64,000 nucleotides of DNA from Thuidium tamariscinum (Eukaryota; Streptophyta; Bryopsida; Hypnales; Thuidiaceae): the NCBI GenBank assembly GCA_947034885.2, contig OX344754.2:10299001-10363000 (forward strand). Direction: 5' to 3'. Under the pieces are notes generated by a model. That model had not been told where the DNA came from. It ran no database searches and saw only the letters and a program-made list of their open reading frames with translations. The position numbers and the translations under genes were made by a program. Below are positions 7,214-32,980 of the stretch, piece after piece (position 1 is the first letter of the stretch; every line of letters begins with the position of its first letter).

Positions 7214-10200
7214 ATGGCGCAAGTACATGAAGAAAGATATGTCGATTTTCCTCTTTTGGCGGAGGCTTTGAACACACTTGAGCGTTCACGTGCTGACCAC
7301 AGACTACTGGGGAGTTATAAATGTCCTTGCACAGAATGCAAAAGAGGCGGACGGCCCATTCTGCGGAGCACAATTGACAAGCATTTGAGACAACACGGCA
7401 GAGATCCCACTCTGAAGCACTCTATGATTATAAGTGATTCTTCTCTCACTTACGTATCCTTCAAAGTAATGCAAGCAATTGTGCAAGATTCTCTGTTTGA
7501 CTTCCAAGTTCATTGAATTGCTTCTTAATGATTAGGGTTTGGAAATCACCAGAACCTTTTCTTCTTGTTTTACTCTTTTTTGTCCACAGTCTCACTCACG
7601 TAAGAGTTGAAGCCAGAAAATTGAAGACCTCTTTGCAATACGACTTAGGGTCCAAAATTTTCAGTTTAGGGTTATATTTCTAAAAGTAGTACTTCTCTCA
7701 CAGTTTTGCACTCACTCTCAAATTCGTAGATCCATCTTCTTTGCATTGATATTCAAGTAAACTTGCCGCTTCTTTCATTTTTTTCTCCCCTCTCTTGCTG
7801 CTTCATGGAACCCTAATGTATTCAACCCAATTCACTGTGTCATACTTGTCATTTCTTATGCACCTACAAACTGATTGATGCTTCATGCTTTCAAAAACTC
7901 TTCTACACTTAAAAAACTTCATTTCACAGTGGTGATCTCAACTTCAAAATAGTACCTAATTGTAGTTTCTTCATTTTATGCAGCCTGAAGACTTCGACAA
8001 TGACATGTTTGCTTCTGGTGAGTCCCACGATTCAACGATTCTCGAACCCCCGCAGTCTGATGCTCCACCTGAGGACGACCTCGACGAAGGGATGGACTTT
8101 CATCGTCTCACAACGGAATGGTTTCGCAGAGTCGATGACTGCAGAGAGGGATTTAATCGCACTCTTGATGAAAATGAAGACTGCCCTAACAATGACGAAC
8201 AACAGTTTCTTGATCATGCAGACCTCGACATGGAAGACTGGTTAAAGCACAGCCAAGTACCTTTATACCAAGGTTCGAAAATATCCACTCTTGCTTGTGT
8301 GCTTGTACTGATGAACTTCGCCCACTTACACAATGTGAGCAATTCGTTCATGGATGAATTGCTTTCTTTCTTTACTTTGGATGTCCTACCCAAACTGAAT
8401 GGATTACCTAAAACTAGACATGAAGCTTGGAGGTACATTGATTGTCTGGGACTTAGTTTCAATGTCATTCATTGTTGTCGCAATGGCTGCATTCTATTCT
8501 GGAAAGATAGAGCTCAACTCTCGGAATGCCCTCACTATCAAAGTTCGAGGTACATCACAGGGAGTAATAGTATTCTAGTCAAGGTTCTCCGGCATTTTCC
8601 ACTTATACCTCGACTCCTTCGGATGTACCATTGCCGAGACATTGCATCTTTGATGAGATGGCACGAAAGAAACCCCAGTATTGATGGAAAGATGCGTTCA
8701 CCTTTAGACAATCCTGCTTGGAAAAAAGTTGAAGAAATAGATGCATCTTTCTTTAGTAATTCCAAGAATATCAAACTCGGGTTAGCCCTGGATGGCATGA
8801 ATCCTTTTGCCGATATGTCAACTCGACACTCAACGTGGCCGGTTTTTTTGTTGAATTATAACTCACCTGGGTGGCTGGTCACCAAACGCTTCTTTGTCAT
8901 GCTTTCTCTGATAATACCAGGGAAAGAGTCTGTGAAGTCTACGAATGTTGACATTTATTTAGAACCTCTGGTAGATGAATTGCTTCAGTTATGGGATGGG
9001 GTGCCAGCTATTGACATATCTGAGACAACGCTACCGAAGAAATTTACTTTGAGAGCTATGCTCCTATGGACTATTCATGACTATCCAGGGTATGGCTTAA
9101 TTTTTGGATGTGCTACCAAAGGATATCGTGGCTGCCCTATTTGCGGTCCACAGGTTGATTCACGGTATTCAAAGAGCTTGAAAAAAAATATTTTTCAAGG
9201 CCATCGTCGATACCTACCTGATGGTCACCGTTTCCGATTTTTAACTCAAGCATTTAATGGCAAGGAAGAACATCGTTGTAAGCCTTGTAGAGTTTCAGGT
9301 ACCCAACATAAGAAGAGGGGTGAAGGAAGAGAACGTTGGCTAGCTGCGAGAGGTGTTCCTGGATCTGACAGTGATCTTGTAAGGAATCATGGTGTCAAGT
9401 GCAATTCCATCCTATTCAAGTTGCCGTATTGGGAGGTAAGTAACAATAATTACCTTTCACTCCGTTGACTAGTGATTGACATTTACAAAGCCTTTTCGGA
9501 GAATTCGCATGTAAACATTTTCATTCTACTAATGGAACTTCAGATGATGAAGTTTAAGTACTCTTCTCTTACCTCTGCAATTAATACAATTGTTTTCATT
9601 TTGCCTCCTAATTTTGCTTTTGCATGATGCTACTGCAGAAACTTCTCATTAGGCATGTTCTCGATACTATGCATATTGAAAAAAACGTTTTCGAAAATCT
9701 GCTGAAAACGGTCTTTGGCATGAAAGATGGGCCTACAGTCCGACAAGATATGATGGAAGTGGGGTGCAAGTCACGATTGCACATTCGTCCAGCTGAACCA
9801 CCAGCAACCGGATTCCATATGCCTAAAGCTCCATATATACTTCCTGAGGAGAACAAAAAGATTTTCATTGAGAGATTATCTAACTTGAAGGCTCCAATAG
9901 GATTCATGTCAAACATGAAGTCTCGCATATTCCCAAATGGAACTCTTCATGGTCTAAAGAGTCATGATTATCATGTTTTGATGCAGGAACTGCTTCTAGT
10001 ATGCATAAGTGGTTTGCTACCCCCCAAGTGGAGAGAGCTATCATGCAACTGAGATCTATTTTCAGGAAACTATGTTCGAAAACTATAGATCCAATAGTAA
10101 TGCATGTCTTCACTGAGGAGGTCGCTATTACTATGTGTTTACTAGAAAGAGAATTTCCGCCCTCTTTTTTTGATCCTATGACTCATTTGATTGTGCACCT

Positions 10201-13718: not shown

Positions 13719-14733
13719 GGGAGCATTAATGTCAGGTAGATAGAAAGGCGGCTAAGGCAGGATATATTTAGGTTAGGAATTTTCGAACTTAGACCGGATC
13801 CAGATATGTAGGATCTGGGATCCTATTTTATTGGTATTTTTGTAGTTTTGTGGAAGTCAACCCGCCCAAGTTGTAGAGGAATGTTACGTGGCATTCTTGG
13901 CGGCTGGTGTTGATTCCATTTGCGCTTTTAGGTTTCCTTGTAGTTTAGTATTTAAACCCGGTTCGTAATTGAATCCGGGCGCGCATTATGTTATCTTACT
14001 TTCACAAGTTTTTGTGTTGCAAATACAAGTCAAAACCTTTCTGATTCACTCTGGAGTGGACTATGTGCATGGGACCTTGTCAAAGTCTTATGGTGATGGT
14101 TAGGATTGCAGCCTTGTGTGGATAAGTGTGTGCCCGGATGTTCAGTTTATCCGGTCTCTGGACTTAAAGTGAATTCGGTTTTGATAGGGAATTTGTGCAG
14201 GATCTCACAGTGTTTTCTGGAACAAATCTAGGGAGTATTCGATAGGGATAGACACTTGTAGAGTCTGGGTTTGAGATCGGGAAGTACCCAGCCAAATGCC
14301 AACTGAATGGTGATCCGGTCTCTGTAGAAGAAAGAAGGACTAGTGAGGAAATTCAGCTCTCTTGCATAAGCTACCGCCCTTATTCTACCAGGACTTAGAC
14401 TAACTGGGTAATCTGTCGTTGTAGTCTTTGTTAGGATTAGGCAGGAGTGCTTGCGTGACCTGCTGGGCCGGATTAGTCCCGGTCCAGTTGTGAGGTATTC
14501 CGGTCTGGTTGTAGTAGTAGTTTCTTTTTCTTGCAAGTGGAACTTCTGACACTTTAAAACTTGAAGGGTAGGAGTAAGCTTCCTTCCTAAACACCCAAAC
14601 AAGCAGATCCCTCTTGTTATCAAGGTAAAACTTACATTTGGTTACTAAATCTAGGGACTGGACCAACTACTAGTAACCGGTCTTTAGCTCCATATCTAGT
14701 AAGGGTAAGTATAAAGGTGATAAATATACTGGT
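13719..14733. other. E1 noncoding region downstream of its gene
   Basis: There is no supported coding sequence. CCGG-centred words recur in both orientations at about 13790, 13970, 14130, 14150, 14310, 14465, 14500 and 14680. This is the density expected of subterminal protein-binding repeats. The region stops at the TGGT duplication of element E2. Confidence 0.5.
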
Positions 14734-14749
14734 GGGTGTAAGTACGCTA
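14730..14749. repeat. E2 left end: TGGT duplication plus 16-bp terminal inverted repeat
   Basis: TGGT (14730-14733) is followed by GGGTGTAAGTACGCTA (14734-14749). The exact reverse complement sits at 32109-32124 and is followed by TGGT (32125-32128). Confidence 0.85.
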
Positions 14750-15539
14750 CGCCTAAGCAGTTTAGGCAAAATCTCCCTGTACTGTTCTGTATTCAAAGTA
14801 CAAATTAGTACTTGATGTACTTCAGCAAAGTAGATCTAGGCCGTTGATTTTTGATGTCAGAGATGCATTTGTTTGGGAGCAAAGTGCGAGATGATTCCGA
14901 ATCCTAAGCAACCTTAATTGAATGTGCCAGTTGTGTGAAGTATAATTCATGTTGTTAAACTGCCACACAGTCTTTTAAAAGCCATGCCATTCAATACCGA
15001 CCTGATTGAGGTGGCTAATGCTGACGCACTGCACTGTCTGGGGTCGCAACTTAAGGTGATCTGGTTAGGTTTACTTTAAAAAAAAGAGAAAAACTAAAAT
15101 TTGATTCCCAATGGGCAATCCAAGGGCTGGATTTGAATTAGCCCACCTCAACCTTCCCGCTAGTTGGATCTTGAAGCATCCAAAGGCCAAAATCGTGTGG
15201 CCTTGATGAGCATCCAAGGGCTGATCTTAAATTTGCCCATGTTATTTGTTAATTTGCTAAAGGATTAATTATTGATTAAAAATTTTAGACGAAATTTCTA
15301 AGCTATTAGAATATGTAGAGATAAAGTTTTCAAACTTGCAACATTGTATAAATGAATTCACCAAAATCTTCAAAAAAATAGAGCATGTGGATTATAATAG
15401 CCATTCATATCATTATTACAATTATACATGTAGGACTCAAATTGAAATCCTATCATTTTAGTTCAAACATGTGGAAACTAGAATTAAAAATGGATTCAAC
15501 GTACTCATTTTGATTTAGGATTAGAGATGATAAGGATTC
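14750..15539. other. E2 left subterminal region
   Basis: This is noncoding. GTAC words cluster at 14795-14825 just inside the inverted repeat. The rest is AT-rich with no feature I can support. Confidence 0.4.
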
Positions 15540-17190
15540 TACAAATCCACTTCCCATTTTTTTAATTGAATACTAAGAGATTCTATTTTTTATTTAGAGT
15601 ATCAAAGTTATATTCTAGGTTCCACAAATCCACTTCCCATTTAATTATTTGAATACTAAGAGTTTCTATTTTTCATTTAGAATAATAAAGTGATACTCTA
15701 GGTTCCATGAATCCACTTTCCATTTTCTAATTTGAATACTAAGGGTTTCCATTTTTCATTTAGAGTAATAAAGTGATACTCTAGGTTCCACAAATCCACT
15801 TCCAGGTTCCACAAATCTACTCCCCATTTCTTTTATTTGAATACTAAGGGTTCCTATTTTTCATTTTTGTATATTAAAATGCTACTCTAAGTTCCACAAA
15901 TGTACATTCCATTTTTTAAAATTTTAATAAGTCTAAGAGTTCCAATTTTTCATTTTAGTGTATCAAAATGATACTCTAGGTTCTACAAATCTATATCCCA
16001 TTTTTTAAAATTTGAATACTCAGAGTTTCCATTTTTCATTTAGTGTGTGAAAATTGATTGTGGGTTCCACAAATGTACTTCCCATTTTTTTTTTTGAAAA
16101 ACTCAATGTTTCTATTTTTCATTCAATGAGTGAAAATTGATTGTGAGTACAACAAATCTACTTTCCATTTTTAAAATTTGAAAACTAAATAATTCTTTTT
16201 TTCATTTAGAGTATCAAAAATATACTCTAGGTTCCATATATGCACTTCCAAGTATCTTTATTGAATAAACCTAGGGGTATTTTGACTATTTTCATTTCTA
16301 GTATCAAAATGATACTCTAGGTTCTACAAATCTATATCCCATTTTTAAAAATTTGAATACTCATAGTTTCCATTTTTCATTTTAGAGTATCAAAATGATA
16401 CTCTAGATTACACAAATCCACTTCCCATTTTCTAATTTGAATACTCAGAGTTTCCATTTTTCATTTAGAGTAATGAAGTGATACTCTAGGTTCTACAAAT
16501 CTACTCCCCATTTCTTCTATTTGAATACTAAGAGTTTCCATTTTTCATTTTAGAGTATCAAAATGATATTCTAGGTTCCACAAATCCACTTCCCATTTTT
16601 TAAATTTGAATACTAAGATTTCTAATTTTTCATTTTAGTGTATCAAAATGATTTTAGGTTTTACAAATCTACATCCCATTTAAAAAAAAATTTGAATACT
16701 TAGAATTTCTATTTTTCATTTAGTGTATGAAAATTGATTGTGGATTCTACAAATCTACATCCCATTTTTTTAAAATTTGAATACTCAAAGTTTTCATTTT
16801 TCATTTAGTGTGTGAAAATTGATTGTGGGTTCCACAAATATACTTCCCATTTTTTTTATTGAATAAATCTACAAGTCAAGAGTTTCTATTTTTCATTCAG
16901 TATGTGAAAATTGATCGTGAGTACCACAAATCTACTCCCATTTTTTATTTCAATACTAAATGATTCTATTTTTCATTTAGCATGTGAAAAATGATAATGG
17001 GTATCACAAATGTACTTTCTATTTTTTAGATTTGAATACTAAAAGTTTATATTTTTCATTTTTAAAATAGCATGTGAAAATTGATTGTGGGTACAACTAA
17101 TGTACTCTTTTTTTATTTGAATACTAAATGTTTCTATTTCTCATTCGGTGTGTGAAAATTGATAATAGAGTCCTCAAATCCACTTCCCTA
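15540..17190. repeat. Tandem array, about 20 units of roughly 82 bp
   Basis: Each unit reads approximately CCACAAATCCACTTCCCAT, a T-rich run, TTGAATACTAAGAGTTTC, ATTTTTCATTTAG, then AGAGTATCAAAATGATACTCT. The last part is an 8-base palindrome arm pair around AAAAT. Units begin near 15550, 15632, 15714, 15819, 15903, 15993 and so on to 17178. Divergence between neighbours is moderate, and some units replace the palindrome with ATTGATTGTGGG. The array lies wholly inside E2. Confidence 0.88.
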
Positions 17191-18360
17191 TTTTTTTTAT
17201 CAATTGCTTCCTATTCAAATGGGTAATCAAATTTTTTTTTTTTTTTTTTTTCATCAATTTTTATTAATTTTGGATAATCAAATGCTTTTTGTTTTTTTCA
17301 TTGATTTTTTTCTATTTTTTAATCAAATGAGCCTTTCCATTATTTCATATATTTTTAATTTTAGAAAAAAAACATTAGTTCATTTTGTAGATAAATTTGG
17401 TAGGTTTTATGATTTAAATAAAATTTCACAATTCATCTATCTTACATACTCAAATACACTTCTATGAATAACAATTTAAAGTTTCATTTTCTATAGACTT
17501 ATCATGTGGAACTACTGTACATAATATACTATTGATGAGTTACATATATGTCTAATTTGGACATAGAATGACCTTTCATTATCCCATAATGATTGGCATT
17601 CCCAACTCAAGCGTACTTTATAACAATGTGAGTTGGCTTCATACATCATCAGAGGGGAACGGAAACTGGATTATCAAGTAGAGGTTGTTTGAATTGGTAG
17701 ACCACTTTTCGCTCCCCTCCGATCTTTTGCTATTTTTAATTGAAAATTTGAAAATTATCTTTTGTTGCTTTCATCTAATTCCAAAATTTATTTTAGGATG
17801 TATTATTTAATATTATTAAGTGTTTCTATTTTGAAAATACAATTTGAGACATATTGTTGACGTTTGTATGTTCTACATTGAACAAATAAATAAGTCTTTT
17901 AGATTTGACTTGTAGAAGTTTGGTAAGATATAAATTTTGGTAAAATCTACAATGGTAAGACACATAGAACAAATGATTAAACAGAATTAGGTGATGGAAT
18001 TATTCCATAACAATTGACATTCCTAATTTTGAAAGCCAATACAAACGGTCATGTTTAGACTTTATAAATAAAGAAAAAATTTCCACTAGTGAGTCACTAG
18101 TTGAAAATCATTTCAAGTGGTGAATCACCTATGGAGATACTTTGCTTTTGTGGTTTTAATATCAATTTTTTTTAATTTGCTTTCATATACTTCTATATGT
18201 AGTTATTTTTCTTCCCATTTTTACTAGTTCAACAAGATAATAAATTATTGATAAAGAGCTTATGTTTTGGAAACATCTCAATTCCTTAAAAATTAATTGA
18301 AGGCTTCAAAATAAGACCCTACATGTCATACCTAAGTCCAAAACCAAATTAGTAGGTTAA
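17191..18360. other. AT-rich spacer upstream of the coiled-coil/RING-like gene
   Basis: T-rich low-complexity sequence at about 17190-17340 is followed by unique AT-rich DNA. An open frame at 17159-17467 is only a product of T runs. No gene is supported. Confidence 0.5.
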
Positions 18361-18479
18361 GGCAACCGGTGGTCACCAGTTACCTCTTGTGCTGCGTAGG
18401 GGAGGTGACTGGTGACCCCCGGTCACCTTCGTCTCTCTCAGGAGCGAAGATGGCTTTGGCGCCAGACTCACCTTCGAAA

Positions 18480-18605
18480 CTTGGTGAGGTGGTGATCGGC
18501 GAGGTGGCGATCGGCGAGGTGGGTGATGGGCGTGGTGGTGATTGGCGAGCTGGGCGATTGGCAAGCTGGGCGATTGGCAAACTTTCCATTGGCGAGTTGG
18601 GCGAT
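18480..18605. repeat. GC-rich minisatellite just upstream of the 18664 gene
   Basis: Imperfect repeats of GGCGAGGTGG-GATC type drift into GGCGAGCTGGGCGATT across about 125 bp. The array ends some 60 bp before the start codon, in the probable leader or promoter. Confidence 0.75.
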
Positions 18606-18663
18606 CGGGAGTTAGGTTTTTTTTTGAGAAAGTTCCTACGGTGTGAGCGGTGTGAGGGACACA

Positions 18664-21600
18664 ATGGGGCGTGCGCGCGTTAGAGAGAAAGGTTTAGAGG
18701 ACAAGGAGGTGACGGTGAAGTCTGAAACCAAGCGGTCCAAGTCTGCCGATGTAGGGTCGGGTGCCACGAGATCGGGTTCGGCGAGTGGCGACGAAGAAGA
18801 CGTCCAAGTTCTTGAGGGTGCAGCTAGAGTTGTTGCAAAGACCAAGGGGAAGGGGAAGCAGCTAAGGGCGCTTAAAGTCTTCACTTCTGTTGAAGATGTT
18901 GAGGAGGAAATCGCGAGGTTGAAGAAACCACCCCGATTGCTCAAGAAGCATGATTTTGAGACGGAGTATGGACTCGCCAACGAGGGGGACAACCCGCATC
19001 ACTTCCGCAAGAATACGGTAAGTGCCGAGTCTTTGAGGAAGCTCTTTGGGAAGCCATATGGTGAGGGTGGGCGGGCCGGGTATGCTTGGGGTGGATGCAG
19101 TGTAGAAGAGGTAGTGGATAGGGTGAAATTTTTGCACCCGATCCTCTACCAGCATCCCGAGGACAAAACCCCAACTTTGGTCACGATTCGCTTTGCCGAA
19201 GGGGTGGTTCGAGAGTACGAAGAAGGGAGTGGCAAGGTGAACTGGTGCGCGTTTGGTGAAGAGACTAACAAACGCCAACGCAGCCGACACACGCTGGATC
19301 GGAACAAATTGGACGAATTGAAGAAAGCAGTGGCGTCCAGTACCACAGATGGAAAGCGAGCCCCAGTCCGCGGGAAGGAGTGGCGCGGATTCAAGGTGGA
19401 GCCTGGTGTACAGGTGAAGATGGAAGGGGAGAAGGAGGGTAGCGGCAAGAAGCGAGCCCTAGTCGATGCCGTGGAGGAGAAGGGTAGAGCTTCTAAATCG
19501 CGTCCTCTATCGATGGCTGAGTGTGATGGTGTAGGATTTGAATCCGGAATGGCTTCAGGGATTTGCGCGCCAGACGTTGTTGTTGGGGGGGTCGCAGGGG
19601 TGACTTTAAAGAAGTCTGTTGCTGAGGAGCGCTTGATGGACGTTCACCAATTGATGGAAGTGATCCGCTTGGAGTAGCAACACCTTTGGGGATTGAAGAA
19701 AGAGGCAGGACAACGGCTTGAAGGAGCCCACTTGAATCTCAAGCAATCTAAATGGGGAATGGGGTCGTTACAGAAGCAAGAGCTACAGAAGAAGGTACTC
19801 ATCAAGACATTGGAGGAGGAAGGCAAAGATGCTTTCAAGGAAATGATAAAGATGGAAGGAATTCAAGAGCAAATGCAGGAGGAGTCTTTGAAGGTGAACG
19901 CTGCAAGACAGGAGGTGGACGAAGCTGAAGCTGCCATGGCGTCAGTGATAAGAGGTTTGGAAAGTAGTCAATTGCAATTCGATGCCCTAGCAGCAGAGAA
20001 ATTTCAGTTGAAGGCGGGGAGGAGTAATTTGAACTTGTTTCCAAGGCCCATGGTGTACTCAGCCCAAGATCCTCCTTCACCATCATGTGATTTTGGGTGT
20101 AAGAGCAAATCCATTAGAATTACAGGGTGCAGCTTGTGTTCATTCTCATTTCCTCAGAATGACATTGTAGTCTCCTCATGTAAGCATTTGTATCATCCTT
20201 TTTGTGCTTCAGTAGTTTTTGCTAGACATTGCAAGTGCGTGGCAGAAGGTTGCCAAGAATTGTCACATCCGGAGTGGTATCGAAGCTTTGGGTGGGGAGA
20301 CCCAAATGCAGAGCTATCACAGAGAGAATCAATGCTTGGGCTGCCTAAAGAAAGAAGGAGACTAATGAGGGAAAGAACAGACCGAGCTAGATCAAGGGTA
20401 CCGACAATTGGTAAGTTCACATTTGAATTCATGTTGTCTCTTGTAATTTGAATTGTATGCTCATGTGCTTATTGTATATGAGGGTGTCTTCAAGTACTTG
20501 CTTCCTCAAATTGTCTATTTTTGTACTTATCTCTTGACATTGGAATGGTACTGACAACAGGGTCCACGGACGAGGATGTACTAGGAGGACCTACAACAGG
20601 TATTTCTCTTTTTTTGCGCTTCATTTCTAAGGTACTATGAACAAAGTAGTACTGAACAATTGGTATCTGAGTACATACAATACTTCTGGGTACCCCAACC
20701 TAGTACTATTGAACTATGAGCTCCATTCGAAAGACATCCTATAGAATTGTTTGTACTAGTTGTGCATTTTGTATTATCAGTTAGCTAGTATATTTAGTAC
20801 TTTGATATTTTAATACCCAGTATCCTAAGTACATTTGGGTTCATGGAATACTTATTTGAGGAGTACATTTGGATTTTTTGTACATTCTTCTTGCTTAATC
20901 CATTGTGTTCTTTGTACATTTGTATTCTTAGTACAACCATTTCTTCCTTCGTTTGTATTTCTGTACTTTTTGTGATGAGGCTTTTTGTATCAGGGGTACA
21001 TTATGTACTTCTCCTTTCTGTAAGATGCTACGCCCGTCACTAATCTTGTGAGCGTTATGGCAGACTCCTCTTTAGAATTTGCCCCTCATGCATCAGCGTA
21101 TACTGAACCACTTCGTCTAGCCGAGGGAGAGACAAGTCAAAGGACTTGCTCGGGAAGAGATTTTGACGGTTTAGGGGAAGGACCTGTTGAGATCCGGAAG
21201 CAGAGCAGTCCTCAGGTTCTTGAACAAGAGGAGCCGCAACGCTCAACTAAGGTGTGTGTCATGGAGTGCTTAGATGATGGTAAGAGTGGCCACGCCTCTG
21301 AAACTCTTCTGGATTCAGACTCATCTTCATCAGATGACGAAGTAGACACCATGGTGCCTGCTCTGCGTTCATCCTCAGGCACCAGCCTTTCATCTGCCAA
21401 GGAAGAGGGAGACGGTGAGCCGGAAGTTGCCGCACAAGGGAGTGGAGACATCATCAAATCGGCAGATTTGGGTCCCAAGAACTTAGAGAAGCAAGGCCAA
21501 GAGGGTCCGATACCAGAAGTCGCACAAGGTGAGGTGGCCAAGTCCTCGGAATTTGGGTTGACTTCTGAGGATAGCGACCCTACTGGCGTTATGTTTTATG

Positions 21601-22448
21601 TTAAGCTGCGTCCTCGGCTAAATTCAGGTCTTTCTGTGACAGAAGAGGGACTGGTGCCTGAGAAGGCGTCGGAGCCCAAAGTTGCAAGCCCGATGGTACC
21701 CAAACCGGGTTCACAATGCTTGGTGGGGCAACGAGGAAGAGAGATGGATATTGGGAGCAATGTCGCCGACATGGAGGGTACTGCAAAAGGTTTGGAGGAT
21801 AACCACGTGGTACAGGCTGTGGCCAAAGTGGTGGAGGGTTGTGAGAGGGGTGCGGATCCTGTGCTACAAGAGCTGGAGGCTGGGGTAAAGGCTGTGCACG
21901 ATGGAACAACGGAAGTACAAGCCGAAGCAACCACAGGTAAGGCCTTGGTTCAAACATCTCCAGAGTCAAAGGTGGTGGAGAGCACAACAGTGGCATTGGA
22001 GGCGGGATCAACGTCTCCAAAGTCAAAGGTGGTGGAGAGCACAGCAGTGGCATTGGAGGTGGGAGTTGTGGCTGTGCAAGCAGAAGGTGTGGCCGTGCAG
22101 ATGGAAGAAATTGCGGTTGTTCCTCAACCAGCAAGGTTGCCATTCAAGGTGAAGGCCAAGAGGCTGAGAGGTCCAACATTGTCGGATGACGAGGAGGTGG
22201 AAAATATGTCCGCCCCTGAGAATCTGTACTCTGTGGATAAGAGAACTTTTAAAGACTTATCCCAGCTTGCTGCTGGTGTTAGTGATAGTGCAGTTGTTGC
22301 TCCAGAGAGCAATGTTCGGACCAGATCACGTGTTGCTAAAGAGGTGGATGCAGCAGCGGTTAACAAGGCTAAAGGAAAAAAGAGAAGGGGTGAAAAGGTA
22401 GGTGGCCCTTCCTCGCTGAAACGAGGGAGAGCTGCCTTTGCAAAATAG
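18664..22448 (+). pseudogene. Coiled-coil and RING-like zinc-finger protein gene of E2, one in-frame stop
   Basis: Three exons fit: 18664-20410, 20561-20599 and 21025-22448. All junctions are GT-AG, phase 1, and the summed length of 3210 nt is divisible by three, giving about 1069 residues. The start is the first ATG of the frame (GRARVREKG). In order the product has a basic N-terminus, a conserved-looking block (DFETEYGLANEGDNPHHF, FGKPYGEGGRAGYAWGG), a coiled coil at about residues 345-450, a RING-like cluster (CSLC...SCKHLYHPFC...CKCVAEGC) near residues 488-535, then a long acidic, serine- and valine-rich tail ending in basic KKRRGEKVGG. TAG at 19675-19677 interrupts the frame, and coding resumes at once in the same frame. 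It could be a ubiquitin ligase or chromatin adaptor, but the function is unknown. The SET gene follows 300 bp downstream. Confidence 0.7.
20411..21024. other. Introns of the 18664 gene, extremely GTAC-rich
   Basis: Two introns surround the 39-nt exon at 20561-20599. Between 20461 and 21010 I count about 19 GTAC tetranucleotides, against roughly two expected by chance. Confidence 0.7.
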
Positions 22449-22744
22449 TTAAACCGCATAGTCTATTTTTGCTTTGTATTTATTTTTGTATTTGGTCCAT
22501 TGAGCTGTGTTGGTCAGCTCTTAGTATGCAGCTATATTCTATATCTATTAGAGAAGGTTTGTAAGGGCCCTCCCTCATTCAAAATTGTCACTCCAAATTC
22601 TTGTGAGACTGTTGAGTGACTTGTGGTTTTTTAATGTATGCAAAGTTCGTGATTTAATTAAACTAGTACAGTTGGTACTCCGAAGCATTGGCTTAGACTT
22701 TAATTTACTTGTCTTTCTGAAGTATAACGTGGGTAGTTTGGTTT

Positions 22745-24418
22745 GTGGGATGGGGTAATAACCAGGAAGAGATTTGGTATGATCCTGAAGATTTGTCTAA
22801 GGGGATGGAAGGGACTCCTATCAAAGTTGCTGACTTTGACGTGCCTTTGCCTTATTTTCAGTATATGAATTGTAGTCTAATTTATGATCAAGCGCAGATA
22901 TGTCCCACCCTGAAGAGCCTGCACCATGGGGACTACTGTCAATGTTCCAACAGCTGCATGGATGGTAGTTGTCCATGCCAAGCACATGTTGGAGGTGGAG
23001 GTGCATATCCCGGAGGCATTCTAGCAGATCAGTTAATCGAGGGAGATGACGATGGTACTCCTCATTTCTGTAAGAAAGGGACCCCATGTATGAGGGGTAG
23101 AGAGTAGTGCAAGGGTCATGTTCCTCATACTTTCCTTAAGGAGTGCAATGTGAAGTGTGCATGTGGCAGTGACTGTTGCAATCGTGTTGTTCAGCAGGGG
23201 ATGAAGTTTCAAGTAGAGGTCTTTCATATAGCCCTCACGGGATGGGGGATTCGAGCAGCTGAGCATATACCTAGAGGTGCATTCGTTTTTGAGCTGACAG
23301 GTGAGATTTTGACTACTGCTGAACTTATTGATAGAAATAAGCTGGCAAAGGGCCTACTCTCCTATAGTATGGCCATAAGAGGATTTTCAGCTCTTGTAAG
23401 AGACTGCGAGTTCCCAAACGCTGGGAACGCATTGGGAACACTAGGAACGCGATGCTGATGTGGTCGAGCGACTACCACGTCATAAAATAATAATTTTTTA
23501 TTAATTTTAATTAAATATTAAATATTTTGAAAATATTTTTTTGAAAATATTTTTTTTTTTTTAAATCATTTTTTTTCTATTTAATACATTCTGAAGTTTT
23601 TTGGAAAAAAAAATTTTAATTTTTTTTTTTCAAAATTCAAAAATTCAGACTAGCAGGGTGCTGGTCTACAGCAGTGGGAACAATTTCGGGGAACACCCTT
23701 GAAACGGTCTCTTGGGGGCCCAGAAATCCTCTTATGTCTTGATGCAGACTGGGCTACTGAGCACATTGTAGACGACAACAATGCTTTGAACTTGGATTCC
23801 ACTCGCTTTGGAAACGTGGCCAGATTTTTGAACCACAGGTACAATTTACAATTCATTTTTTGTTAATTTCTTTCGCTTTAAATTACTTCTTTGGGAAGAC
23901 TGTCCATTTTTTATTGGGTGTTATGGCTTTAATTACAGCTGTGGTTTAGGGGTCATAGACTTGGTCTCTTCGAAATTTAACAATGTGTCTACATTCTTGA
24001 ACCTCGGGATAGAGTTGGGCAACGTTTGCCTTTAAATTGTTTCTCAATGTTCAATACCTTTGATACATTGACCCTTGCAATTGGACATTACAGATGTGGA
24101 GATCCGAATCTAGTAGACATGCCTGTCTCAATTGGAAGTATCGACCGCCATTTCTATCATATTGCCTTCTTCACGAATCGAAGAGTTGAAGTTGGAGAGG
24201 AGTTGACGTGGGATTATGGCACAACGTTTAATGACTCTGAAACATCACAATCTTCTTTTGCTTGTAGGTGCAGCAGTGTCTTATGCAGGCAAAAGTTGTG
24301 TAACACTAACTTGCCCAAAGACGAGGTGGGTGACACTTCAATGACTGTAGCCGAGTTGTTGGCTACTGCACATCGAAAATTTCTCACAGACCCATCTAAA
24401 CCACGTAGGACCAAATGA
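22745..24418 (+). pseudogene. SUVR-like SET-domain histone H3K9 methyltransferase gene, broken by a stop and a MITE
   Basis: The order of motifs matches plant SUVR1/2/4 proteins, which methylate histone H3 lysine 9 in repeat silencing. A short N-flank (DLSKGMEG...PLPYFQYMN) precedes a pre-SET zinc cluster (CQCSNSCMDGSCPC, then KCACGSDCCNRVVQQG). The SET domain has the cofactor motif GWGIRAAEHIPRGAF, LDADW, NVARFLNHRCGDPN, HIAFFTNRRVEVGEELTWDYG, and a post-SET CRCSSVLC. An intron at 23839-24093 splits NHR, and the product ends at 24418. The first exon lacks an ATG and probably has an upstream partner (acceptor near 22723). Two lesions are present: TAG at 23105-23107 in the pre-SET region, and a 355-bp MITE between MAI and CLDADW. 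All catalytic motifs are otherwise intact. Confidence 0.88.
23378..23732. mobile_element. MITE (TA target duplication, Tc1/mariner-Stowaway-like) in the SET domain
   Basis: Left end AGAGGATTTTCAGCTCTT and right end (reverse complement) AGAGGATTTCTGGGCC form an imperfect inverted repeat that continues for about 40 bp to GTTCCC. TA flanks it at 23376-23377 and 23733-23734. Removing it and one TA joins SYSMAI to CLDADW in frame, the expected SET sequence. Its core is AT-rich. Confidence 0.85.
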
Positions 24419-25309
24419 ATTAGGACTTTGCAATGGGGCTTTCAAAGGTAGGGGTGTTTTAGTGATATTTGTACTCCATGTACTCCATGTACATGTACTA
24501 TATATAAAGATGTAATATCTACTATATGTACAAAGTGTGTACTATATGTACAAAGTGTACTCTATGTAAAAATGTATTGTTTTTTGATATTTTAAGGAAT
24601 CACTATTGCAATCTCGTTTAGTGTGAATTAATAGTGATTTCTAATTTAACTGGTCACTTGCGGACTGCCAATGTTCTCATCAGCCTCTTTCATGTGTAAA
24701 ACACTCTTGTTCGTTGAAGTATATGGACCAATTTTGTACATGGAACAGGAGGAGTAAGTCATGCAATACCAAAGTTCTAGCTCCCAGTTTTGCTACTTTA
24801 GAGTGAACTGTAGAGGATGTTTTGTCCATTGTGCGTGCAAGTATTAAAGCCTTGGCCATATTGTCATTACCCCGTTCCACAGTGCACAAGATTATATTCA
24901 ATTTATATGTAAATGTAATCAGACAAGTTTCTTGAATGCGAAAGTTACATTCTTTAAAAGAAAGGTCATTGTCATTGTATCGATTGACCATTTAGCTTTC
25001 CACTTGTTCTTCAAGAACTTCCCCTTTAGAGATGAACATTCATTCAAACATTCATTCTAAAACAACTCTTTGTATATTCTTGGTCAATTATTTTGCCTCT
25101 ACAAATTCAAGCCCAACATGTGGTCATCTTTCTAGAGTAAGGAATGCAAACAAATTATGGCAAAGCTAGTGTGGGACTACTTAGCATCCCAACTCCCATG
25201 ATCTATACAAAAAGTCTGATGACACCATTTATCTTTATTTCTTCTAATCCTCATTATAGGGTCTACAATCCATACCAGGTTCCTATTTATTTATTTATTT
25301 TTTGAATGT
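24419..25309. other. Spacer downstream of the SET gene, GTAC-rich at its start
   Basis: At 24470-24570 there is a run of GTAC words (TACTCCATGTACATGTACTA, then repeats of CTATATGTACAAAGTGT). The rest is AT-rich and noncoding. Confidence 0.5.
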
Positions 25310-25790
25310 TTTCATATTTAGGTGATGTGTGCATTTCATCATCACCCAATTTTTTTCACCACCTAAGAAAACATTCTTGTGAATGTTTTTTTAGGGGTTG
25401 ACATTCATTACCTTCCCATTTTTTTCTTTCAAAAGTTTTCTTATATAGGTAATGGGTGTATACCATCACCCAATTTTTTTCATCACTTAAGAGAACATTC
25501 TCATGAATATTTTCTTAGGTTTTGGCATTCATTACCTTCCCATTTTTTTTTCTTTCGAATTTTTTCTTATTTAGGTGATGTGTGCATTCCATCATCACCC
25601 AATTTTTTTCACCACCTAAGAAAACATTCTTGTGAATGTTTTTTTAGGGGTTGGCATTCATTACCTTCCCATTTTTTTTTCTTTCGAATTTTTTCTCATA
25701 TAGGTGATGGGTGCATTTTTTTTTCACCCAATTTTTTTCATCACCTAAAGAAAAAGAAAACAGTCTAGTAAATGTTTTCTTAGATGTTGG
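25310..25790. repeat. Four tandem repeats of about 125 bp
   Basis: Units contain TTAGGTGATGTGTGCATT, CATCACCCAATTTTTTTCA, CACCTAAGAAAACATTCT and GGCATTCATTACCTTCCC. The CACCC word recurs near 25345, 25467, 25600 and 25727. Open frames across it on the plus strand are by-products of the repeat. Confidence 0.85.
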
Positions 25791-27369
25791 CATTCATTAG
25801 CTCCCTACTTTTTTCCCTTGTAAATGTTTCAATTTGTTGTCACTAGCATTTGTTCCCTTCACCTTTTTTTCCTTTTTGAGTTTCTTATAGGTGTCTTGAA
25901 ATTCGTTTCCTATATTTGGTGTTGTACTAGTGCAAAGGTCTTTTTTTTAATATTTGATATATTCACTTTAACTAAATTCATTCTCCATTCTTTTGTGCAA
26001 TTAGTAGGAATATGATTAATAAGCATATTAAATATGCTCATTAATCCAATCGTTAAGTGCTTCATTAGTATATCATTGGATTATTTCCTTAAAATTAAAA
26101 GTTGTAAAAACTCTGAGATTTATATTTGGAGCCATACAATTAGTGGAAAAAAGCTTCTAGTGCTCTTCCATGTACCATAGCTTCAATACCCAAACCACGA
26201 ATCAATGTTTGAAAATTCATTTATTTTTAAAAAAAAACTAAAAATTAAAATTTTGGAAAGGACTGATGGTGATCATATTTCACCAAAGGGTTGATTTTGA
26301 AACCATTTTGGGTATGTAGGATTACATGTACAAAGGGTCCCTATTTGCATGAATTGTAATATTGTTTTTTTTTAAATTCTTTTGAGTGGACACATGATTC
26401 TTTAGTGTGGGAGAAGAATACATGAATTTCGAGTCTATATCATTAATGTTTTGCACTCCATAGTACTCAAAATCCCTAAATTGTAAAGTGTGAAAAATTA
26501 GCTAAATTAAAATTTAGTTAGAAAATATTTTTTTGAAATTTTTGAAAAACAAGAAACCTCATTACTATCAATAAAAATTTCAAATAAATTTGCCTAACCC
26601 TAAGGTGTCCAAATTCATCTCTATTATTAACCCTTTAAGGACCGTGGTTGATTTGGGGGCAAGTTTGGGGGGCGGGTGTATTTCTTCAAGAAAGTGAATT
26701 TTGTGGCCACTCTAAGTGTAATCTTAGATCGAACCGTATAAAGTGTTTCTATAAGGGAGATTATTCAACCTAACCAAAAATCAAACTCATCCAATGGTAC
26801 AAATTGCTATAAATAAAGTAGAAGGTCCATAAATCAACCTTTTAAGGGCTAGAATTGAATTTTTGGAAGGTGGAACATCTTTATATATTTTTCAGTAAAT
26901 TTTTCTCAAGAGGCAAGTAGAATAGGCATCTAATCCTTGTCGTTTCATATTTTTTGAATCTTTTTGAAATTAGTTACAAATTTTTGAAGTTCACAAAAAA
27001 TGGTCATTTGTAGTCATCAAAAGCAATACACTTCTAAAAGCTGAGTTTGTGATTAACTATAGGTATATCCAAATCAGAGGGCAACTAGTAAATGAACATC
27101 TCATTTCTCACCTATAACACAGCTTCAGATAAGAAATATTACACTTAAAAGCGAGTTTAAAAACTCACAACTATTTATTAGTTCATGCAGTACATATTGT
27201 ATACAGAACATATAGTACATATAGTGTATCTTGTACATATGGTACATGTAGCACATAGAGTACTTGTAAGGCATATCTAGCTTGAAGCTCTCATAGTACT
27301 CAAAGTATCTACTGATACTTCCAAATATGCTTTGAGTTCCCACAGCCTCAATGCTACAATGCAACATAG
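25791..27369. other. AT-rich spacer between convergent E2 genes
   Basis: No gene is supported. A GTAC- and GTACAT-rich patch occurs at 27180-27265, downstream of the DDE-type gene, where its transcript should end. Confidence 0.5.
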
Positions 27370-30300
27370 TTAATCACCATTGAATGCCCACCACTCCCGT
27401 AAGGCATCTTCACATATCCGTTGTGTTTCACTAGACACCTTGTATACATGAGTTCCTTTCACCCTATGAGAAGCTAGAACCATAGGGAATTTACAAGCCC
27501 GAACTAGATGAGCCTCTACATGAGCATCAACTGCCCTGTCACAAAGCACGTAGGTCTTCTCTCCACGCCCGTACTTCTTGAAGTATTGTGCTCGAATCAC
27601 AGCGTCTCCAGCTCCAAAAAATCCCCCCCATGGACATGTCATGGACTCCTGTAACACAAACTTCTTGGCCACACATTGGAGGATGTAGTATTCCACCCCA
27701 TCTTCGTTATCCTCCTCTGCAGGTATCATGAAGTTGTCGCCAATTTCTACCAAGTCACCAACCTCTTCCGAAATACCATCATACGCCCAGTTTGCTTCAT
27801 TGTCCATCTCTTCGACTTGTTGAGCTACAGCAGCAGTATTGAAAGGCTGCAACCTTTGAACCCGCCATTCCTGCACATGTGCTGAATTTTCACACTCAGT
27901 CCAATCACCATCAATACATGGGATACAAAAGCATGACAATTCACGAGTCCTAAGCAGGGTAGGGTTAGTTATAGAAAAGCCTGAAATGGAATAAAGACTT
28001 TTGGAGCCTGGCAGAGTGTGGCATTTGATACTATTATCAGCATGATCGACATCCGAATCTCCAATCAGCCAAAAAATACGAGAAAGAGGGGAAGTTGTAG
28101 CTCGTGCGTATGAGCTGGGTACACGTTCGGTGTATTTCTCATCCAAGAAATCCACTACATCAGCAGCATTCCGTAACGGCCGCAAGGGATTCTCAATCTG
28201 CTCAGCAGCCAATGCCCTTTTCACCACCGCACCTGCCCCATCCCATTCGCCCTTTCCATGAGCGGATTCAAAGAAATTCCAATTCATCTTGCAACCTCCA
28301 GTGAGCCCAGGGTAGCGTGCCACAAAATACATAGCTGTTGCACACTTGAACTGTGCACTACAGCCGTCACTGAACACCCAATGCTCCTCCGGAGTGAATC
28401 CAGAGTCAGTTAGCCAATCCCAATGCAACATCAGGCAATGCTGAACAAAAGCAGAGTCGTGGGATTTATCATTAGAGATATAAAAGTGGGTCTGCTTCAT
28501 AGTCTGGTCTCCTTCTTTCCACATCGTAATGTGAACCAATATGGTCACACTTGTACTGTGATAATACAAGCTCTGCACCTCATTCTGGATGGCAAAGGAG
28601 TAATTTTCAGCATAGTCAATGTGGGATACAACAACCCCCTCGGGCACATTTTGCATCATCAGTTGGCACTGCTCATCCTGCCATCGAGCCTTGAAGTTGT
28701 GCGTGACAAATGTAGTGACGGTTTTCTCCATGTATGCCAAGAATTCGTGTGCAGGTGTCTCTTTGAAAGCCTCCCTAATTCTTTTTTTGGCTCTTCCGGT
28801 CTGAGAATCCACTCCCACCTGGTAGTACTCAAAGCACTTCCACTTCAAGGTAAACGTGTTAGAAGTAGATAACTCAAGAGGACAAAACAAAAGCAAACGA
28901 AAACCACATCTAGAACACTCTCCCATAAGGCATTCCAGTCTGTGCCAAACATCAAACTCCCCTTTCGGACACACACATGCTTCCCACAGTAAGGTTATCC
29001 GCTCAAAAATGTGCTCATGTGCACAACAACCCCCCTCTTCATTGCCTTTGCAAATAATACAAGCACAAGCACAGTTAACATGCAGCCCTCTAAGCTTGTC
29101 TCTTAGATTCCTCAATCCAATCTTCATGAAATCGGTTTGAACATGGTAAATACAACAACATGTATTTCGCTCCTTTAGTTTCCGCACCCACCACGGCTTT
29201 AACCTCTCAAATGCCCTTTGCCGCACACTACATTCAAGGTGGACTTCCTTGAAGCGCAAAAAAAATGAGGTCTGCAAAACTCAGAGACATGTAAAACATG
29301 TACAATAAGAACCTTTTTTGCAAACCTTGTACGTGAGAAATATACAGAATGTACTAATTGTAGAAAAGTACCATAACAATGTACTAGGAGTCATGCATGT
29401 ATTACACACTGCAATACCACCTTCAGGTTTCAAAGGAGACATTATACAATATGTACATTTTATATTACATAAAGTTCATCACAGTGGTAGATTATTATGA
29501 AAATTGAAAAGTACAAAACCATCCCAGTACCATTTGTACTTTGATTCGTATGACCACTAACAATGCCATATGTACAAAGGGTATGTAACTAGGAAACAAA
29601 GTACAAGAGTACCTACTACACCTAGGTTCAGGGTCATCCTTCAGGTTTAAAGTTGAATATGTACAAGCTAAAATTCCATTTTGTACAACATGATCCCAAA
29701 GTGCTCATGACTACATATTAACACCTTAACCACTACATGAACAGTATTAAACATACACAGTACTCCTCATGCCATGAGCTATTGATGTACTTTTAATACT
29801 CGTAGGACATGGGGTCCAATTATTGTAGAGCTCATTCTGTTCTCTTCTAAGCAAATTCTAGCAAAACTACTTTGACTAACATGAATTTGGACTCCAAAAC
29901 ATAAGTAAAAAGACAACACCTCAATTGTAAATTCCAACATATCTGAGAATCACACAGATAATGCGTCGGATGAGGCTCCGTCCAATCCTTTAGATCTACT
30001 CAGTGTTTGATCACGTCCTTTTTGTTTGGAGAGACCTTAGTCTGGGCATTCCACCATACATGAATGCATTGTTTGACGTAGTCAGAGAGTCCCCCTCTCT
30101 TCTTATGATGTAAGCGAAGCCCTAAAACTGTTTCCTCATAATCAAGGAGCACAACCCTTCTATTCAAAGCAATATTGATACTCTCTGCTGATGTTTCCAA
30201 AATACGAGACAATGGCCTCACCCAATCAATTCCCAAGCTTACTGCTGCATCCAACAGAGCACTCTTCCTGGCTAACAACTCGTTGGAGTTTGCTACCTTT

Positions 30301-30737
30301 ACTAATTGCAATTCATTCTTGAAGCTCTCAATGAATGAGTGAATGATCTTAGCTTCCTGCGGCCGTGCATAGTACTCAGGCAACAAAGGGGAAACACTAC
30401 TGTGGCGCAATAACCTCTCCACAACATCTCTCCTACTTTGTGGACCGGGACAGCCTCTCAACTCCTGCCCTAAATATTGCACTAAACGAAGTGAGATTCG
30501 ATTAGAGTCTCTCGGTGATAGACTGTCTTCCGAAACACCTGGTGCTACAGAAGCTATAATAAGTGCCTCTTCATGCCTTTGTCTTTCTCGTGACCTCTGC
30601 AAAGACTTTCTTACTCTTGCGTTCTCAGTTACCAAAATCTGTTGCTCTTCTTGTAAGCGAGCTGCATTGGCCCTAACTGCTGGACCTGGACGACTAATGC
30701 CATTTCGTACTCGTTGTCTCTTGGCAGTGTTACCCAT
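27370..30737 (-). pseudogene. DDE-type transposase-like gene of E2, one in-frame stop
   Basis: Two main exons are clear. The 3' exon (29271-27370) follows an acceptor TTTTGCAG. It encodes about 630 residues: a Cys-rich zinc-like region (NTCCCIYHV; CACACIICKG; ECSRCGF), then candidate catalytic blocks HIDYAENY, VFSDGCSAQFK and FFESAHGKGEWDGAG. With residue 1 at 29277 these give D221, D304 and E337 or D346. The C-terminal part (VGDLVEIGDN...EYYILQC) looks like a compact beta domain. The 5' exon (30738-about 29940, acceptor TTTGTTTAAG) encodes a basic coiled coil and KTKVSPNKKDVIKH-like sequence. It is cut by TGA at 30000-30002, after which the same frame continues as EPHPTHYLCDSQ. Related proteins of unassigned class are scattered through eukaryotes, from memory. 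This is the best candidate mobility gene of E2. Confidence 0.7.
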
Positions 30738-30889
30738 TCTTAAACAAAAGAACAGACAAACGCACGTTAGTCATCTACCGTAAACCAGAGTATGTAGTTC
30801 AGAAGTTGTGAAGATGACAAGATCCAATGTAAGCATTGCATGCAGGAAGGTCTGAGGAGCATCGGTTCAAGAGAATTTGACAGAACTCA

Positions 30890-31256
30890 CCCTCATAAAT
30901 AACGGTGGTCACTTCCTCAACAAAAGGGATTCGCAGCTAACAGTTGAAGGCCCAGTCGAAAGTCTCACGGAAGAAAAAGAAGGTGTGAAGTCCGAACTTG
31001 TGGTGGGATATGATGTTGGATCTGAGCTAGTGAATAGAGATCGCCTGGAGGACTCGTTCTGTGTGTTGCACAAGCCTAAATAGAAATTAATGTTTCCTTG
31101 CTTGGACACTGGGGTTTCTGAAATGTAACCAGAGTCACTAGTCTGAGCACTAATTGACTCAAAACAACGAGAACCCAACTCAATAGGAAGACTTGCAGTG
31201 AAATATGAGGTAATAAGTTTTTGAACCAGGACAGCTGGGTGTTGTGTAGACATCGC
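30890..31256 (-). CDS. Possible 5' exon of the DDE-type gene
   Basis: On the minus strand an ATG near 31256 opens MAMSTQHPAVLVQKLITSYF, followed by a serine- and threonine-rich stretch to about 30909. A good donor, GGGTGAGTTCTG, lies near 30890, and the acceptor for the next exon is just above 30738. If spliced this would be the N-terminus of the transposase-like protein. The frame ends slightly before the donor, so either the junction is elsewhere or there is a small lesion. Confidence 0.35.
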
Positions 31257-31329
31257 CATCTTTCCTAAACCAAGACAAACAGCTTGCGCAAACATCACCA
31301 AGTATTGACCATTGCACAGAAGTTTCAAA

Positions 31330-32108
31330 GCACTAAAAATCCAAGGAAAACTGTGATTCCATACAGCCTAACAGCACAGGGAATCACAAACCAAGCCGGA
31401 GGTGCACAGCAAACGTAGCCCAGACTCAGGAGAGAGACGACGATGACGTGGCCGAAGAAAACAGTGGCGCCGCCACAACAGACCGGCGTCCAAGACAAAT
31501 CAAATTTGTCAGGATGCGCAATTAAGGAATGTTCCTTCGGTCAAAGTACAAAAATGTACTAAGAGTACTCTTGGTATCTGAACAACATATAGAAGTGCCA
31601 AAAAATAACTAACGGAAAAATTTGTTTTTTCTTTAATTGACTAGACGCCATTCTAGAACTAGGTGCCAACATCTAGAATCTTCAATCTGATTGGAAAAAG
31701 ATGGATTTTTCCACCAGATATAACTTGCAAACAAAAATTGACTTCTTTTGAAGATTTCGGCCAAACTGAAGCTGTAAATAAAAAAGTGAGGGTAGATTCG
31801 AATACGCTGCCATTGCTTATCTTCATTGCAAGAAGAAAAGAAGTACTTTGACTTCCCACCTCTAAGATATTTGTACTTTCCTTCAAAAAAGTGTACTGTG
31901 ACAATTTACTGAGCATACTAAAAGTACAAATTTCTCTCATTGAACTTGGTAATTCAAGAAAGGGACAACATGCACATGAACTTAACATGTAACAAGTCTA
32001 GCAAATAAAAAAAAATTGGCAAAAAATCCCCCCTAAGTAATCACAATCACAAGTGCAAAGTCGAGTTTTCTAGAAAATTGGCTTTGTGACTCAAAAAAGT
32101 ACGGGGTC
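31330..32108. other. E2 right subterminal region
   Basis: This is noncoding, probably the promoter side of the minus-strand gene. GTAC words recur at 31545-31580, 31840-31935 and 32098. No other feature is supported. Confidence 0.45.
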
Positions 32109-32128
32109 TAGCGTACTTACACCCTGGT
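32109..32128. repeat. E2 right end: 16-bp terminal inverted repeat plus TGGT duplication
   Basis: TAGCGTACTTACACCC (32109-32124) is the exact reverse complement of the left end, and TGGT follows at 32125-32128. Confidence 0.85.
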
Positions 32129-32380
32129 ATAAATAGATATACAAGTCTTGAAAGATAAAGGATTGATCTGGTAATCAGGACTAAGGAAATCTTAGGAACC
32201 TTTGAGATCCGGACCGGATTAGTCTTTTGCTTGGGTTTTGTTGTGGTAACTACTAACGTATTCCGGTCTTTCGTCAACTTTCGACCAAATCCTTTGGGAA
32301 CGATACACGAGTCACTTTAAGGCTAATTTAGTACATTCTAACGCCTTAGAGAAGGAATTGTGCTTTCCTGTGCTACGACA
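32129..32380. other. Right-hand end of element E1
   Basis: This 252-bp segment carries the same CCGG-centred words as 11150-14700 (ATCCGGACCGGATT near 32209, TTCCGGTCTT near 32261). It ends TGTGCTACGACA next to the AGTCG duplication. Confidence 0.75.
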
Positions 32381-32385
32381 AGTCG

Positions 32386-32980
32386 CGGGGATAGGAATCC
32401 TGTTATAGGTAAGGTAACGTATTATGGAAAAATACTGGAATTACTGGAATTGGACTACGGACGCTTAAGACCTGTTGTTTTGCTTTGTGATTGGGTGGAA
32501 CCTATTAGTAGAGGTGCAGCAGCATGCATGAAAAAAGACAAGTACGGTTATACATCCATGAAGTGGAGCAGACTTATGCGGAGGTCGTCAAATTCCTTTG
32601 TCTTTCCACTACAGGTGTCCCAAGTTTTTTTTGGCAATAGTTTTTTCGAAGAAGGCTGGTTTGTAGTTCTTCAAGTAGAACCTAGATGTACCCGCGTCGT
32701 TAACGATGTCTTGGGAAACTTCGATTTACCTTCCTCAGATTGGGCCGTTGAGAATTTTAGAAATCCTGCTCTTTTAGAAGAAGCAGATGTGGGCGACGAT
32801 GTTGATGTCCACGCCATTGACATTGAGGGGGACATAATCACGGCAAACGATTTAGTTCGTGCCCACCTTCAAGTGGAGGAAGAAGCTGAAATCAAGGACG
32901 AAGAAGGATCCCAGGACGAGACTTCGCTGGAGTTCGAGGTTGCAAATTCCGGAAGCGATGATGACAATGAGTGGAACTGA
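32386..32980 (+). pseudogene. TNP2 3' part (DUF4216-type C-terminal domain)
   Basis: This is the continuation of the TNP2 gene interrupted at 11069. It encodes RGDRNPVIGKVTYYGKILEL, then LDYG...VVLLCDWVEP, KKDKYGYTSMKWSRL and QVSQVFFG..., the hallmarks of the C-terminal domain in plant CACTA transposases. An acidic tail ends at a stop at 32978-32980. The apparent ATG at 32360 lies in E1 and is not a real start. Nothing is missing between the two halves: codon CG-C is rebuilt exactly when E1 and one AGTCG copy are removed. Confidence 0.93.

Follow-up and report, generated by a model that had tools for sequence, protein, structure and literature searches.

The stretch of DNA analysed here (the window) comprises 64,000 nucleotides of the moss Thuidium tamariscinum (assembly GCA_947034885.2, contig OX344754.2, positions 10,299,001 to 10,363,000), and it contains a 17,391-bp DNA transposon that is bounded by perfect 16-bp inverted repeats, flanked by a 4-bp duplication, and loaded with genes beyond its transposase, among them a gene with a SET domain. 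The left terminal inverted repeat (TIR; GGGTGTAAGTACGCTA), found by pattern search in the window and the genome, lies at window positions 14734..14749 on the forward strand; the same search places an exact inverted counterpart at 32109..32124 on the reverse strand. Reading of the flanks gives the duplication TGGT on both sides (14730..14733 and 32125..32128). When up to three mismatches to GGGTGTAAGTACGCTA are allowed, the window contains two matches, which are the two ends themselves, against a mean of 0.16 in shuffled windows (two matches were reached in 1 of 100 shuffles). The 363-Mb source genome holds 12 exact occurrences of the 16-mer and none of its reversed control. Both the repeat and the duplication had been proposed by an earlier sequence-only reading of the window, and both are borne out.

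Read from left to right, the element holds an AT-rich array, gene 1 (+), an acidic stretch followed by the SET gene (+), the transposase gene (−), and a small open reading frame (ORF; −). The array, identified by repeat search, has a unit of approximately 83 bp and lies near the left end (15503..17209). Gene 1 (18628..20451, +; delimited by ORF, alignment, and structure model) codes for a coiled coil and, after it, a Cys/His pattern that resembles RING-H2. Ahead of the SET exons, an acidic ORF of low complexity (21024..22448, +) probably supplies the N-terminal part of that gene. Pre-SET and the first part of SET follow at 22721..23866 (+; Pfam, copy alignment), and a second SET exon lies, together with the post-SET cysteines, within an ORF at 23981..24418 (+; ORF, Pfam). 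On the opposite strand, ORF and conservation place the transposase main exon (636 aa) at 27370..29280 (−), and conservation places an upstream exon at 30000..30770 (−), with a junction drawn from conserved sequence and splice-like sites; the transposase is thus predicted to be coded by at least two exons. The small ORF (30909..31262, −), recognized by its conservation among copies, carries the PCNA-interaction-like motif QKLITSYF.

The window copy has also received two later insertions, as copy alignment makes apparent: a 363-bp insertion (23374..23736) breaks the SET gene, a second insertion of about 833 bp (26209..27041) is specific to the window copy, and both are missing from all six of the other full-length copies aligned; gene 1, in addition, has an in-frame stop at 19675-19677. 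These two insertions, the stop, the fourth conserved ORF at 30909-31262, and the upstream transposase exon at 30000-30770 are additions to the sequence-only reading. The 363-bp insertion has perfect 12-bp inverted terminal repeats (CATAAGAGGATT) and no visible duplication, and looks like a small mobile element in its own right. A relative (87%), inverted, is present in the repeat array of another copy (C11_1373897p, L027), around positions 3399-3740 in the joined sequence.

To survey other copies, 20 kb of sequence was fetched inward from each of ten further genome matches of the 16-bp TIR. Six of these proved to be full-length copies that align colinearly to the one in the window, at 95.8-97.6% identity outside gaps; including the window copy, the seven full-length copies of this family, which we call family A, measure 15,429-17,509 bp. 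A seventh match belongs to a short copy of 791 bp with both ends present, a GCCA duplication, and no element gene, and three more are incomplete or nested within the fetched sequence. The duplication is exact in five of the seven full-length A copies (AACT, TAGA, TGCT, ATAT, TGGT), and the other two have flanks CAGA/TAGA and TGGA/TCAT. A paralogue of the window insertion site without the element lies near C2:10455249-10456235, where the two flanks of the window element align, at 94.4% and 91.5% identity, around a single TAGT. It would have been conceivable that the inverted repeat is a chance match and the genes between its arms ordinary chromosomal neighbors, and we found no evidence supporting that idea; the excess of exact genome matches over the control, the colinear copies elsewhere with duplications of their own, and the empty site refute it, leaving it a negligible probability.

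A search with the transposase returned at least 83 matches in the genome (all counts derived from it are lower bounds), which fall into family A (93-98% identity to the window protein), family B (64-84%, by piece), group C'/C'' (43-59%), and group C (38-43%). The right end of family B was placed by a homology boundary common to 13 other copies, and its first bases are GGGTTGAAGTACACTA. A merged end pattern with at most one mismatch matches the genome 122 times vs 82 times for the control, so that many of the one-mismatch end sites are due to chance. Exact B ends nevertheless form pairs: among the matches listed there are 13 TIR-bounded pairs (two of them with a single mismatch in one of the ends), twelve spanning 16.0-21.1 kb and one 39.5 kb, and 13/13 span matches to the transposase, SET, gene 1, and the small ORF. 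An exact 4-bp duplication flanks nine of the ten B pairs tested, and 15 of the 18 copies tested over families A and B. None of the examined copies with these ends encloses the transposase alone. Outside these two families, a C-type element in L033, from 1714, apparently starts GGGT...CTA (GGGTAAAAACAAACTA), at the start of its homology with other copies.

Membership of the cargo genes in the element, which had earlier been proposed from position, follows from the bounded colinear copies, the exact duplications, and the empty site: the SET gene, the RING-like gene, and the small ORF belong to the transposon. Linkage beyond the bounded copies was counted by a script run over hand-typed tables of transposase, SET, and gene 1 matches, using a 30-kb neighborhood. 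SET is found near 10/10 transposase clusters of family A (nine elements, one of them divided by an insertion), 22/22 of family B, 7/8 of C'/C'', and 3/56 of C; in the SET-bearing lineages (A, B, C'/C'') it is thus close to 39 of 40 clusters, and on the opposite strand in 39/39. The corresponding counts for gene 1 are 10/10, 21/22, 6/8, and 22/56. Over all groups, SET is opposite the transposase in 41 of 42 cases and gene 1 in 58 of 59; the two cargo genes have the same orientation in 76/76. Seen from the SET side, 40 of 105 loci lie near a transposase, vs about 3 for random positions (largest of 500 runs: 10), and 76 of 105 lie near gene 1, vs about 4 (largest: 11). Because gene 1 accompanies some C transposases for which no SET was detected, it looks like an older companion of the transposase than SET. 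A set of 38 SET loci has a gene 1 homologue on the same strand, often about 3 kb away, and no transposase detected within 30 kb (for example, C1:2576116 and C3:15132647); these may represent additional transposon lineages, copies in decay, or a pair of host genes. The C' copy differs from that of the window in having its small ORF between SET and the transposase.

The SET gene seems to have diverged together with its carrier: the higher the identity of the transposase, the higher that of SET (Spearman 0.78; n=37, paired by hand). The ratio of nonsynonymous to synonymous substitution rates (dN/dS) for SET is 0.29-0.35 between C' and C'' (at dS 0.75-0.92) and 0.17-0.22 between A and B-type copies (dS saturated); among recent B copies it is 0.40-0.58, and in a close C' pair 0.70. 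Values well below 1 between subfamilies indicate that purifying selection has acted on SET as it moved with the element, and that diverged subfamilies have retained the gene.

What kind of transposon this is has to be judged largely from its ends, duplication, and size. The main transposase exon of the window has no Pfam match at E<=1, including no integrase match, and the transposase has no NCBIfam match and no PDB match by sequence; its conserved acidic residues are D222, D305, and E345/D347. Several known superfamilies disagree with the features observed. CACTA/EnSpm elements have CACTA ends, a 3-bp duplication, and a tnp2 transposase; here the ends are GGGT, the duplication is 4 bp, and a tnp2 gene (7966-9465) lies outside the element. 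Harbinger elements make 3-bp duplications, and a SET-carrying PIF/Harbinger element (HarbingerS) is likewise set aside by the 4-bp duplication and the lack of any Pfam transposase match at E<=1. MuDR/Mutator, with duplications of 7-12 bp, and Ginger, with a Gypsy-like integrase and TIRs of 40-270 bp (both as given in excerpts of PMC10741241), do not agree with a 4-bp duplication, or with a perfect 16-bp TIR and no integrase match at that threshold, respectively.

Sola agrees better. According to the same excerpts, Sola elements have 4-bp duplications, DDD transposases, and TIRs from 11 bp, are mostly 2-9 kb in size with some >15 kb, and are present in the moss Physcomitrella (PMC10741241); our element agrees with this description in its 4-bp duplication, 16-bp TIR, and length of 15.4-17.5 kb. 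The sequence-only reading had spoken of a possibly undescribed type, having compared the element with the common plant superfamilies. That the superfamily is indeed undescribed, and merely resembles Sola in its duplications, GGGT ends, and size, strikes us as unlikely: a transposase that matches nothing in Pfam, NCBIfam, or PDB by sequence speaks for it, but the libraries searched show no sign of a Sola model, so that silence is expected for Sola too, and the excerpts of PMC10741241 give for Sola the same duplication length, a compatible range of TIR lengths and sizes, and an occurrence in a moss. We therefore regard Sola membership as most likely, an assignment drawn from described features.

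Among the closest parallels is Sola1-1_Ec32 of Ectocarpus, described in excerpts of PMC12477816 as a giant Sola-1 of 21.5 kb with a ParB + DNA methyltransferase gene opposite the transposase. The Sola superfamily shares with our element the 4-bp duplications, short TIRs, sizes that can exceed 15 kb, and an occurrence in a moss, and in both Sola1-1_Ec32 and our element a chromatin- or DNA-modifying gene lies on the strand opposite the transposase; the cargo differs, being a ParB + DNA methyltransferase gene there and SET, RING-like, and PCNA-motif genes here. Excerpts of PMC12730594 name Phytophthora elements of the HarbingerS and MuDR kinds with SET histone methyltransferase genes, which are likewise DNA transposons carrying such a gene, but of other transposase superfamilies and in an oomycete host. 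They also report TET/JBP genes in KDZ and other fungal DNA transposons (PMC12730594), which resemble our element in being giant with a retained epigenetic enzyme, and differ from it in their transposases and in carrying a DNA dioxygenase rather than a histone methyltransferase. In searches of the open-access literature, outside which most subscription journals and Repbase Reports lie, we found no SET gene in a Sola element or a plant DNA transposon, which is weak evidence of novelty. In our reading the kind of element is already known, a Sola-like giant transposon, and the novelty would lie in its combination of cargo genes.

Taken together, the element is probably a giant multi-gene cut-and-paste transposon of the Sola superfamily with a stable cargo of SET, coiled-coil RING-like, and small PCNA-motif genes. 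Several points weigh against this reading. The structure model of the transposase is weak (mean predicted local distance difference test score, pLDDT, 44.9), the transposase exon is open in only two of the seven full-length A copies, and no examined copy proved intact in all genes; the element is known here from its sequence, and the activities of transposase and SET protein are predictions. No transposase was detected within 30 kb of 65/105 SET loci, many distant SET pairs are saturated at dS beyond calculation and give no dN/dS, and one close pair, resting on very few changes, gives a dN/dS of 3.7. Two further points would suit a different account, in which the SET, RING-like, and small-ORF genes were caught from the host by chance, as in Pack-type elements, and have no role for the transposon: the frames are broken in many single copies, and the deeper lineage C of the same genome is mostly without SET. 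Yet both TIR-bounded families, and C' as well, have the same genes in a constant order and on constant strands, dN/dS is well below 1 between subfamilies, and the small ORF is open in 15/15 matches at >=92%, all in family B. Such retention already disfavors chance capture, which we hold to be improbable.

The SET gene claimed by the sequence-only reading does show genuine matches to pre-SET and SET, but in the window copy they fall under the Pfam cut-off and the gene is interrupted by the 363-bp insertion; the frame is open in other copies. In such open-frame copies the cut-offs are passed by pre-SET and SET in L011 and L057, and by SET alone in L031. In four of the seven full-length A copies, the first SET ORF stays open across most of pre-SET and the NH motif (260 aa in three, 245 in one); the second is open in all seven. 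The post-SET CxCx4C is present in the window and L031 exons, and pre-SET, SET, and post-SET features are retained in families A and B. A conserved intron with GT-AG ends lies at the NHxC motif in the three copies read for it, one from each of A, B, and C', where the codons across it give NHRCGDPNL, NHRCGDANL, and NHRCEDANL. In a comparison with PDB, a profile built from ten SET sequences matches EHMT1/2 best (5e-34), then SETMAR (PDB 3bo5, 1e-31) and Clr4 (5e-25), followed by SUV39H2, DIM-5, SUVH6, and SUVH4 (8.4e-20), with the H3K36 enzyme SETD2 just behind (1.7e-19). On this similarity the protein is classed as SUV39/G9a-like (SUV39/KMT1-type), and the ranking favors an enzyme acting on lysine 9 of histone H3 (H3K9). 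SETMAR, a single host gene of primates in which SET is fused to a mariner transposase, likewise links a SUV39-type SET with a transposase, but as one fused host gene, whereas the genes here are separate and sit in a multi-copy element.

The coiled-coil/RING-like gene held up in its first half: the structure model of gene 1 has confident helices at 2-112, corresponding to the coiled coil, and leaves the RING-like part unresolved. That part is a conserved Cys/His pattern alone, with eight Cys/His invariant in three gene 1 sequences and a zf-RING_2 match under the cut-off (Pfam, E=0.18, window copy); its last spacing is longer than usual for a C3H2C3 RING. In the small ORF, the motif reads QKLITSYF in A and B and QQCITDYF in C', and fits the QxxI/L/MxxYF-type consensus of the PIP box (PCNA-interacting protein box), by which the protein is PCNA-interaction-like in its predicted character.

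The element is itself nested in a CACTA/EnSpm-like element, of which the tnp2 transposase (+; Pfam E=7e-68) lies left of the insertion and a DUF4216 match (32342-32977, +; E=2.3e-6, slightly under the cut-off) to the right. Farther along the window, a resistance-type gene of the NB-ARC/LRR class, indicative of a plant, is spread over several open frames (47531-50410, −; Pfam). Elsewhere in the genome, the one small contig C11 (17.5 Mb of 363 Mb) holds 24 of the 83 transposase matches found, and may be repeat-rich or a sex chromosome. Degenerate telomere-like TTTAGGG repeats occur toward the left side of one family B element (L029, 1834-1869) and match the extreme end of contig C6, the contig on which the window lies.

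As a working model, an RNase H-fold transposase would cut at the GGGT ends and insert with a 4-bp stagger, while the SET protein, probably with its RING-like neighbor, would methylate H3K9 or another lysine; the pair would act in trans on chromatin in favor of the element, and the PCNA-like motif would tie the small protein to replication. H3K9 methylation is a main mark by which hosts silence transposons. It is possible, at less than even odds, that SET tunes how its own family, or the site of insertion, is silenced, and such self-directed marking seems the most likely route when set beside an attack on rival elements. We give the same weight to the converse possibility, relief from silencing, in which SET is a decoy or an altered-product enzyme that shields the element from the host. 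The SET motifs NHRC and ELTWDYG depart from the usual forms, NHSC and LT(F/Y)DY, which would suit such a role. Chromatin genes of transposons are, moreover, mostly read as counter-silencing, as for Vandal proteins and fungal TET/JBP in excerpts of PMC12730594. On the other side, the retention of pre-SET, SET, and post-SET in A and B suggests a working enzyme, and sequence gives no direction of effect. A more far-reaching version of self-marking, which we rate as doubtful, holds that SET writer, RING-like partner, and PCNA-docking peptide would form a self-contained chromatin module that marks newly replicated or inserted copies of the element, possibly related elements as well, with replication-coupled H3K9 methylation; the element would then manage its own silencing, would be the source of a considerable share of this genome's SET-domain loci, and could represent an undescribed superfamily.

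For genome annotation, the consequence is that plant SET gene counts may include transposon genes. For the biology of silencing, a transposon lineage that keeps an H3K9-type methyltransferase gene under selection would make it directly testable, in a plant, which party controls silencing.

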